Assembly: GCF_900099555.1 (NCBI RefSeq)
Contig: NZ_FMWM01000002.1
Location: forward strand, 372,001-436,000
Origin: Peptoniphilus raoultii
Lineage (GTDB): Bacteria; Bacillota; Clostridia; Tissierellales; Peptoniphilaceae
DNA length: 64,000 bases
Direction of reading: 5' to 3'
The position numbers and the translations under genes are program-made. Positions 30,175-33,816 of this stretch are shown here, one piece after another. The notes under the pieces are model-generated. The model saw only the letters and a program-made list of their open reading frames with translations. It searched no databases and was not told the origin of the DNA. The number at the start of each line of letters is the position of its first letter. Position 1 is the stretch's first letter.

Positions 30175-30251
30175 TGGCGTCCGCGAGAGGAGTCGAACCT
30201 CCGGCCCCACGCTTAGGAGGCGTGTGCTCTATCCAACTGAGCTACGTGGAC
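30175..30251 (-). tRNA. tRNA-Arg (anticodon CCT)
   Basis: A 77-nt cloverleaf including an encoded CCA. The D arm carries AGCTCAGTTGGATAGAGC, the anticodon loop is CTCCTAA in the stem CACGC/GCGTG, giving anticodon CCU (reads AGG), and the T arm has GGTTCGACTCC. The acceptor stem GTCCACG/CGCGGAC pairs except for an A5-C68 mismatch. The discriminator base is G. Confidence 0.95.
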
Positions 30252-31691: not shown

Positions 31692-31961
31692 TCAAATTAT
31701 ATGCATGGCATTAAAAATATCTTCATGCATAACTTTAATTTTAACTTCAATTTCTCTTTCAAGTTCTCCATAATCACGAATCAGGTCATCAAAAGAACCT
31801 GACATTTTACTTATGTCAACAATCATAATCATATTAAAATAGCCATCAATAATAGTTTGATTAATATCAACAATATTTATACCATACTTTACTAGAAGGC
31901 CTGTAGATTTATGGACAATACCAACCTTATCTTTACCAACAATATTAATTACAGCTTTCAT
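31692..31961 (-). CDS. ACT-domain protein (UPF0237, GcvR-like)
   Basis: An 89-residue single ACT domain ([35 protein letters not shown]). Such domains bind amino acids or other small ligands and usually control a partner enzyme. The ATG at 31961 has GGAGG with a 5-base spacer; an ATG 12 bases upstream overlaps that site and is unlikely. It is paired with UPF0210 downstream. Its start lies only about 40 bp past the terminator of the 500-nt RNA region, so that region may be its leader. Confidence 0.9.
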
Positions 31962-31997
31962 AACAACCTCCATTTATATTAGTATAAAATATAAGCT

Positions 31998-32495
31998 CAA
32001 AAAAATAAAGAATGAATAAATTATTATTATAGGCCCTCCCATAATCTTTCATAATCATTCATTCTTTATAAAAACTTTCCAACTTCCATTCCATAAAAAC
32101 TTTTTGGTTCAATCACGCTTCTTATCACCTAATTTACTTTAGACTAAACTGTTATTTATTATATTCCTAAAGACTAGCTTTTATACTATTAATCAAATTT
32201 CTAACTCTCAAAACTTGTAGTCATCAAACTGCTTTCAAAATATAATATTAATTCCAATCTTACTTTACATAATCAATTATTTGTGTTTTTGAAATTTTAT
32301 ATTTGTTTATATTTTTTATCTTTTATCTGAAACTTTATTCTTAGCAATTTAAAATCTAAATCTTCTAAATTTTATCTATATTAAAGTCAAAGACTGATAA
32401 ATTTTTAATGATTTTTTGTATCGGAATGGAATTGTCAAGTTTCATTACCAAGACTATAAACTTTTTATCATACTACTAAGTTAACGCATCTTGGT
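31998..32495 (-). ncRNA. Candidate structured RNA of about 500 nt
   Basis: No protein frame exists on either strand. Read leftward the unit has a consensus promoter at 32502-32530 and a strong intrinsic terminator at 31999-32067. The 5' end would form an 8-bp hairpin stem (plus 32489-32496 with 32446-32453). A second, long-range helix joins the ends: plus GGAATGGAA at 32423-32431 pairs with TTCCATTCC at 32084-32092, extended by AAGTTT (32437-32442) with AAACTT (32072-32077) across an internal loop. This layout, a 5' hairpin, a closing helix over some 330 nt and a 3' terminator, resembles large structured bacterial RNAs. It could instead be the attenuator leader of the ACT gene. No known family recognised. 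Confidence 0.6.
31999..32067 (-). terminator. Intrinsic terminator at the end of the candidate RNA
   Basis: Read leftward, AAAGAATGAAT (plus 32057-32067) pairs perfectly over 11 bp with ATTCATTCTTT (plus 32007-32017), then A and seven T. The loop is long (39 nt) and holds smaller pairings. Only 38 bp separate it from the ACT-gene ATG. Confidence 0.8.
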
Positions 32496-32501
32496 ATTGC
32501 T

Positions 32502-32530
32502 ATTATACCCAATATTTATAAAATAAACAA
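32502..32530 (-). promoter_or_regulatory. Promoter of the candidate RNA
   Basis: Read leftward: TTGTTT (plus 32525-32530), 17 bases, TATAAT (plus 32502-32507) preceded by GGG. Transcription would begin near 32495, exactly where the 5' hairpin starts. Confidence 0.7.
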
Positions 32531-32595: not shown

Positions 32596-33801
32596 TTATT
32601 CTTCGAAGTAAGGAATAAACTTATCTTTTACCTTGTCCCAATCATCTTGTGAAAACTTTAAAAGTTCAAAATTTTTATCTTTTTCCTTAATTTCCTTGGG
32701 ATTTTTATAAAAGTTAAGGGCTATTTTATTATTTTCTCCCTTATGATTTAAAAGACCTGAAATTTTGAAATAATTGCCAGCCTTAAAGTCATAAAAATCT
32801 CCGTCAAAATACCATCCCTTATAGTAAGAAAAAATTTTATGGTCTTTTGGATAATAAGATAGGCTAAATGACCTACCATTTAAAAGAGCATTTATAGTAT
32901 TTCGGTGGTCATAAGTCCTTAAGCGGGCCTTTAAAGAAAGATTGGGAAATTTTATGATTAAGGGATTTTTTAAAGAAATGACATATTTTTCGTCAGATGT
33001 GTAAATTTTTTTAATGTCCTTATTTTTGTCAATGTCCATATAAAAGACTTTTATATTTTCATCAGTCAGATTTTGATTAAAAATATTCAAAAAGTCATCG
33101 GCAAAAGAATAATATCTTTTGGGAAGGCTACCGTCATTTTTTAAAAAGTCTTCAAAATTTTTTAAAAGATTGGTGGAGTCCTTAGTATTAATAATAATTT
33201 GATATTTACCTTCTCCCAACTTTTTAACCCTAGTAGAATTTAAGAATGCTGTCCATTCTTCCCTCAAATATTTTTTTAGTCTTGTTTTTTTATCAAGGGG
33301 ACTCATTGGTGGACTGAGGAAAAAATCATTAGTAAAATCAAAGTTTAAATCCTTGGCAATACTTGTGTTTTTTGCCATGACAGAGGCTGTGTTTCTGTCA
33401 ATATAAAGAGATTTATCCAAAATTTTTGGAAAAGTTAAATAAATATTATTATTTATAATAGTTTCTCCATATTCTCTAGCATCCTCAGGGTTTTCTATTC
33501 TATAATAGGAAAGTTTTTTCTTATTTAAGGGGTCCTCTATAAGGATAAAATTTTTAAAATCATCTCTTCCAACTTTTAAAAATGAAAGGGTGAAAGTTCC
33601 CTTTTCTTCATAGTCCCTAAAGGTCTTTTCTATATCAAGGCCCGGGAAAAATTTTGAAATCTCACGGATTAGGCTGTCATCTAAAGTGTATATGGATTCA
33701 GCAACAATTTTTTTGGGATAGTTTAAATAGGATTTATAAAAAAATCCAAGTCCTAAAAGCATTATTATTAAAATGAAAATATAAAATTTTTTATTTTTCA
33801 T
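32596..33801 (-). CDS. Membrane-anchored extracytoplasmic protein of unknown function
   Basis: A protein of about 401 residues with one hydrophobic N-terminal anchor (FYIFILIIMLLGLGFFY) and a large, lysine-, aspartate- and aromatic-rich exterior part with no cysteines. It is largely beta-strand-like in pattern. No family was recognised. Either ATG 33801 (GGGGAAG upstream) or an ATG 12 bases earlier may be the start. It follows the MATE transporter gene at once and is probably cotranscribed with it. Confidence 0.7.
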   Translation of the reverse strand: MKNKKFYIFILIIMLLGLGFFYKSYLNYPKKIVAESIYTLDDSLIREISKFFPGLDIEKTFRDYEEKGTFTLSFLKVGRDDFKNFILIEDPLNKKKLSYYRIENPEDAREYGETIINNNIYLTFPKILDKSLYIDRNTASVMAKNTSIAKDLNFDFTNDFFLSPPMSPLDKKTRLKKYLREEWTAFLNSTRVKKLGEGKYQIIINTKDSTNLLKNFEDFLKNDGSLPKRYYSFADDFLNIFNQNLTDENIKVFYMDIDKNKDIKKIYTSDEKYVISLKNPLIIKFPNLSLKARLRTYDHRNTINALLNGRSFSLSYYPKDHKIFSYYKGWYFDGDFYDFKAGNYFKISGLLNHKGENNKIALNFYKNPKEIKEKDKNFELLKFSQDDWDKVKDKFIPYFEE

Positions 33802-33816
33802 AGGCTTCCCCATTTT

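Follow-up and report, generated by a model that had tools for sequence, protein, structure and literature searches.

A family of structured RNA genes in Peptoniphilus and relatives with a long-range helix between the 5' end and a putatively translated terminal mini-ORF

About 500 nt on the minus strand of the Peptoniphilus raoultii genome separate a protein gene without Pfam match (32596-33813, minus strand) on the upstream side from a downstream gene for an ACT-domain protein (31692-31973, minus strand), which is followed by a DUF711 protein gene. What kind of RNA is encoded there, and what does its long-range fold do? The original prediction saw an unassigned, structured, stand-alone RNA with a helix tying its 5' and 3' ends together. 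Coordinates below refer to the window, i.e., the whole 64,000-nt stretch of DNA that was analysed. The features of the locus, all on the minus strand, are:

32525-32530, minus strand: -35 element TTGTTT, from the sequence (family consensus TGTTTA)
32502-32507, minus strand: -10 element TATAAT within GGGTATAAT, from the sequence (promoter visible in most relatives)
31999-32496, minus strand: predicted transcript of ~498 nt, from promoter, terminator and fold (z -4.66), with the start placed by the -10 element
32446-32496, minus strand: P1, 5' terminal hairpin of 9 bp (32496-32488 with 32454-32446), from the fold
32422-32443, minus strand: 5' strand of the long-range helix P2, GAAACTTGACAATTCCATTCCG; of the 850 nt upstream, this segment forms the best duplex with the ORF tail (z -5.7)
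32194-32217, minus strand: internal hairpin CAAGTTT[TGAGAGTTAG]AAATTTG, from the alignment of relatives; local form of a hairpin with a UUA(A)GAGUNGG loop
32124-32130, minus strand: Shine-Dalgarno (SD) sequence AGGTGAT, 7 nt 5' of the start codon, from the sequence
32066-32116, minus strand: putative mini-ORF with GTG start, 16 codons (MIEPKSFYGMEVGKFL, then stop), from comparison of relatives
32071-32093, minus strand: 3' strand of P2 in the ORF tail, with core GGAATGGAA at 32092-32084 (codons 9-11)
31999-32068, minus strand: intrinsic terminator, its stem starting at the mini-ORF stop codon, from the sequence

A stand-alone RNA gene and its relatives

The predicted gene boundaries are well supported by their signals. 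The predicted promoter is present on the minus strand, with TTGTTT (32530-32525) and TATAAT (32507-32502) separated by a 17-nt spacer; among 39 relatives, the -35 consensus TGTTTA recurs in 30 (18.6 expected) and GGGTAT, in the -10 region, in 26 (2.6 expected). The terminator stem comprises the predicted 11 bp, AAAGAATGAAT (32067-32057) with ATTCATTCTTT (32017-32007), and a single A precedes the run of seven T (32005-31999). At the predicted start site, the expected 5' stem has 9 bp in our fold rather than 8 bp, and most relatives have a P1-like hairpin of changed sequence that starts at their predicted 5' end. The whole ~500-nt strand, terminator included, folds at -102.7 kcal/mol, compared with -77.6 ± 5.4 kcal/mol for 100 shuffles (z -4.66).

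A DNA search of relatives returned a conserved block of ~70 nt from the 3' part of the RNA within the same genus, and the extracted relatives are complete units with promoter, hairpin, TGACAATTCCATCC, GGATGGAATTG and terminator. Covariance model R1 detected one copy per genome in 14 of 14 Peptoniphilus-group species examined and gave weak matches in two further genera. Sequence model R2, which represents the mini-ORF part, and pattern searches added many more Peptoniphilaceae genera and a second family of the order. Homology across these two families is well supported by a common layout, in which promoter and 5' hairpin are followed by an exposed strong SD, a start codon (GTG, ATG or TTG), the residues M-I-E-P-K, a tail that varies and a stop directly next to the terminator. 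Many Peptoniphilaceae members also have the hairpin with the UUA(A)GAGUNGG loop.

The homologous RNAs are roughly 370 to 940 nt long, and this variation occurs without loss of P2. Tandem A/G-rich repeats lengthen the spacer before the SD in three members (L040, L042, L178), and another (L002, 1197-1738) contains ~230 nt extra. Some genomes carry two copies (L128/L129, L130/L175 and L131/L177 in g56; L157/L173 in g24; L139/L184 in g59); paired copies lie 2.1 kb apart in G087 and 16 kb apart in G147, each with a different P2 helix.

The genes flanking the RNA differ from lineage to lineage and are often convergent, and the RNA is therefore a free-standing gene; for the same reason, we rejected an attenuator of a downstream gene. 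By eye, several genera (L037, L045, L046) have a gene for a tadA-like deaminase next to the RNA, and the second family (L192-L195) has feoB/feoC-like genes there; these neighbourhoods are possible ancestral positions.

Searches of genome contigs yielded real matches only in Peptoniphilaceae, with contigs of P. vaginalis and P. harei identifying the genus as Peptoniphilus, and in one Tissierellia MAG; matches in Alistipes, Marinobacter and the like were rejected, as they lacked the partner helix. When the exact MIEPK codon pattern was sought in 391 genomes of the class, all fetched matches from outside the order lacked the combination of mini-ORF and terminator, and genomes without a match may carry members whose MIEPK has changed. 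A blastn search of plasmids returned no homologue, and seven matches in viral contigs were chance matches without the family layout. Rfam cmscan, run on the window at the gathering score and on the region plus 24 related loci at a permissive E-value, gave only chance matches for the RNA, in agreement with its prediction as an unmatched RNA; neither the window nor the relatives tested matched OLE, ROOL, GOLLD, raiA, 6S or RNase P. The sole Rfam or ARAGORN match within the window is a tRNA-Arg(CCT) gene (30175-30251, minus strand). The literature search found no paper on MIEPK or on small RNAs of these genera. In the best reading, the RNA belongs to a new family that spans the order and is absent from Rfam.

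The terminal mini-ORF

Both strands of the locus had been described as lacking an open frame. Nevertheless, 32116-32066 holds a 16-codon ORF that is preceded by an SD and falls below ordinary length cut-offs, and the long-range helix has its 3' strand inside this overlooked ORF. Across the family, the ORF comprises 11-18 codons (MIEPK...) at the 3' end of the RNA, and an alignment of diverged copies leaves a 3' core of SD, start and GTG ATT GAA CCA AAA ....

The coding pattern of the ORF is well supported. In 21 distinct relatives, frame 0 contains no stop in 252 codons, while the other two frames contain 45 and 17; the absence of stops from the variable codons 6-8 alone has a probability of ~0.002, and each of the 21 ORFs ends in a stop at the base of the terminator stem. 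Among 61 distinct ORFs, the start is GTG in 54, ATG in five and TTG in two, codon 2 is ATT or ATA (ACA in two), codon 4 is CCA or CCT (TTA in one) and Ser at codon 6 is written AGT or TCA. Moreover, the SD:anti-SD duplex averages -10.35 kcal/mol in the family versus -2.93 kcal/mol in control windows. Start swaps, synonymous changes and a strong SD are marks of translation and, because the frame-specific openness and the placement of the stop point the same way, we read the ORF as putatively translated, with strong support from this comparison. The part of the RNA that is conserved best thus looks translated, being a mini-ORF complete with start, stop and ribosome-binding site, and "structured mRNA" or "dual-function RNA" fits the feature better than "plain non-coding RNA".

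GTG initiates 54 of the 61 ORFs (32114-32116 in the window) despite the AT-rich genomes. This preference suggests that weak initiation has been selected or that GUGAU is constrained as RNA.

One might suppose that the MIEPK... peptide is the product and that the RNA is a long structured leader that only controls its expression. Codons 1-5 are indeed conserved at the amino-acid level, with synonymous changes and start-codon swaps, but beyond codon 8 the residues are highly variable and track the base pairing. The peptide tail appears to have no conservation beyond what pairing imposes, which makes any function of the peptide putative, and MIEPK itself could in part be conserved as RNA sequence. 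The peptides are polar (mean GRAVY -0.52, maximum 0.23). We consider a micropeptide gene of this kind an unlikely explanation.

A long-range helix in fixed register

The perfect 9-bp match between 32431-32423 and 32092-32084 and its extension past an internal loop were confirmed. In 63 relatives, we searched for the best duplex of the ORF tail within 850 nt upstream, with shuffled tails and tails from other genera as controls. The best partner beats shuffled tails at a z of -2 or below in about 60 of the 63 relatives (z -5.7 for the window P2 alone), and mostly sits shortly 3' of the promoter. Native duplexes average -26.0 kcal/mol versus -17.2 kcal/mol with foreign tails; in 46 of 63 relatives, the native tail outperforms each of the ten foreign ones, while in 17 it is matched by at least one, partly as several genera share CATCCAAC. 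Taking the best duplex at each locus introduces a selection into these statistics, for which the shuffled and foreign tails are the only controls. P2 is weak in the g22 members (L164, L165).

P2 has a median length of 18 bp in the 63 relatives, and its strands lie 180-740 nt apart. Its first pair falls at ORF nucleotide 22-24 in 51 of the 63, which makes a fixed register well supported. While the window pairs TTCCATTCC with GGAATGGAA, other lineages use unrelated sequences (CCATCCTAT/ATAGGATGG, GATCATCC/GGATGATC, CCCACTGGCACAG/CTGTGCCAGTGGG, CCTAGCAGCGCAGC/GCTGCGCTGCTAGG); L193 forms a P2 of ~20 bp, CTTTGACAACTGCATCCAAC with GTTGGAGCAGTTGTTCAAAG, with one bulge per strand. Pairs were counted directly from the duplexes, as a MAFFT alignment of the P2 strands lost register, and every helix position samples all four Watson-Crick types plus G-U. 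The check for covariation that accompanied the original prediction thus found the helix kept by compensatory change across many genera. Together with the homologues, this strongly supports the earlier view that the locus is a stand-alone gene for a structured, unassigned RNA whose 5'-3' helix is genuine.

Because sequences turn over while P2 pairing and its start near nucleotide 22-24 persist, what is inherited appears to be the pairing and its distance from the start, rather than the sequence or the peptide tail. Likewise, the P2 5' strand appears too variable across lineages for a conserved mRNA target. The commonest P2 5' strand (32422-32431 in the window, and relatives with CATCCAAC) contains ATCCAAC, which is not universal in the family and is complementary to GGUUGGAU, a stretch that precedes the anti-SD at the 16S rRNA 3' end. 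A frameshift site was rejected, since the sequence 5' of P2 contains no conserved slippery heptamer.

In 60 of 63 relatives, less pairing is predicted at the ribosome-binding site than in the remainder of the RNA. The stretch 5' of the SD contains 8% C, compared with 14% in the downstream flank, and this low C content may keep the SD free.

Taking these observations together, we think it probable that the RNA is a translation-gated conformational switch, a self-locked mRNA or dual-function RNA whose 5' end pairs with the second half of its terminal mini-ORF. In the closed RNA, the ribosome-binding site would be exposed in the loop enclosed by P2, and a ribosome would initiate at the (usually GTG) start. 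An initiating ribosome covers ~15 nt past the start codon and, as P2 begins near +23, the leading edge would therefore meet the helix after two to three codons. Finishing the ORF would melt P2 and free the 5' segment of the RNA, so that translation and folding would be coupled, and P2 could re-form afterwards. The freed 5' segment, the product peptide and ribosome occupancy are candidate outputs of the opened or closed state.

A related proposal takes the paused ribosome itself as the output, with the RNA acting as a ribosome-binding decoy or sensor of the translation state in which P2 halts the ribosome after fMet-Ile-Glu-Pro-Lys. The P2 start fixed near +23, the very strong SD and the conserved codons, which are exactly those read ahead of P2, would suit such a device; ribosomes can unwind helices of this length, however, which makes the proposal improbable to us. 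For the switch that we prefer, a further step can be suggested only tentatively: the family may represent a new class of RNA device, with a 5' end antisense to its own mini-ORF, a constant ruler of ~22 nt and complementarity as the only inherited element, in which passage beyond fMIEPK would be the opening or timing signal of a translation sensor or ribosome-capturing RNA.

These findings add an order-wide RNA gene family that is present in every Peptoniphilus-group species examined, and such species are common human commensals. Annotation overlooks the family twice, as the ORF is below gene-caller length and the RNA is missing from Rfam. The helix is kept through near-total sequence turnover, and the structure is therefore unusually certain ahead of experiment; the constant distance from start codon to helix makes coupling of translation and folding directly testable by point mutants.

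Comparison with known systems

A close structural parallel is found in the hok and aapA mRNAs, which encode a small ORF and whose 5' and 3' ends pair in a conserved manner (PMC6733600). Our RNA shares this conserved long-distance pairing, and the hok/aapA messages likewise close over their full length through a 5'-3' helix that covaries (PMC6733600); our RNA could accordingly be a type I toxin message, silenced by end pairing and countered by an antisense RNA, and the few genomes with two paralogues, each with its own lock, would fit. In hok/Sok and aapA/IsoA, however, the pairing hides the SD, which is predicted to be accessible here, and the product is a hydrophobic membrane toxin, in contrast to a polar peptide of 11-18 residues with a freely varying tail. 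A further difference is that P2 involves the coding tail and keeps a constant spacing to the start. Moreover, whereas hok/aapA have an antisense RNA partner, comparison of relatives revealed no antisense promoter at a conserved offset over the ORF. A toxin-antitoxin system thus seems a doubtful identity for this family.

OLE, ROOL and GOLLD are of the same size class and are likewise stand-alone structured RNAs of poorly understood function (PMC12286853). The original prediction had placed the locus among such ornate non-coding RNAs, to which length, promoter, terminator and extensive fold would conform, with the ORF an accident. This assignment finds no support: the RNA has no match to their models in the window or the relatives tested and is defined by one long-range helix of variable sequence, while frame-specific openness, start swaps, SD and stop placement make its most conserved part look translated. 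A purely non-coding RNA is thus very unlikely. The idea that P2 is no RNA helix but the inverted repeat at the termini of a mobile element (MITE) can practically be dismissed: two complementary segments do lie 180-740 nt apart, but the genome holds a single full-length copy, promoter and terminator lie outside the repeat, the register to the start codon is fixed and G-U wobbles occur among the pairs.

Like tmRNA, the RNA is structured, at least ~350 nt long and equipped with a short ORF. Unlike tmRNA, it possesses a start codon with an SD, as well as a terminator; ARAGORN detected no tmRNA in the window and no tRNA-like domain. We rejected this identity, as the true tmRNA is encoded separately, RF00023 matching another locus in all 14 genomes (G000:C1:258446-258797 in this one).

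Staphylococcal RNAIII, a dual-function RNA of the agr locus, encodes the amphipathic delta-hemolysin in its 5' part. The Peptoniphilus RNA resembles it as a stand-alone, highly structured RNA of ~500 nt with a small ORF, but its ORF stands at the other end, with only the terminator after it, and the two peptides are unrelated. Finally, leader-peptide attenuators such as trp and erm couple translation of a short ORF to RNA folding. The Peptoniphilus RNA differs in lacking a constant regulated gene 3' of its terminator, but shares with them the short ORF and, as we propose, the coupling of translation to folding.
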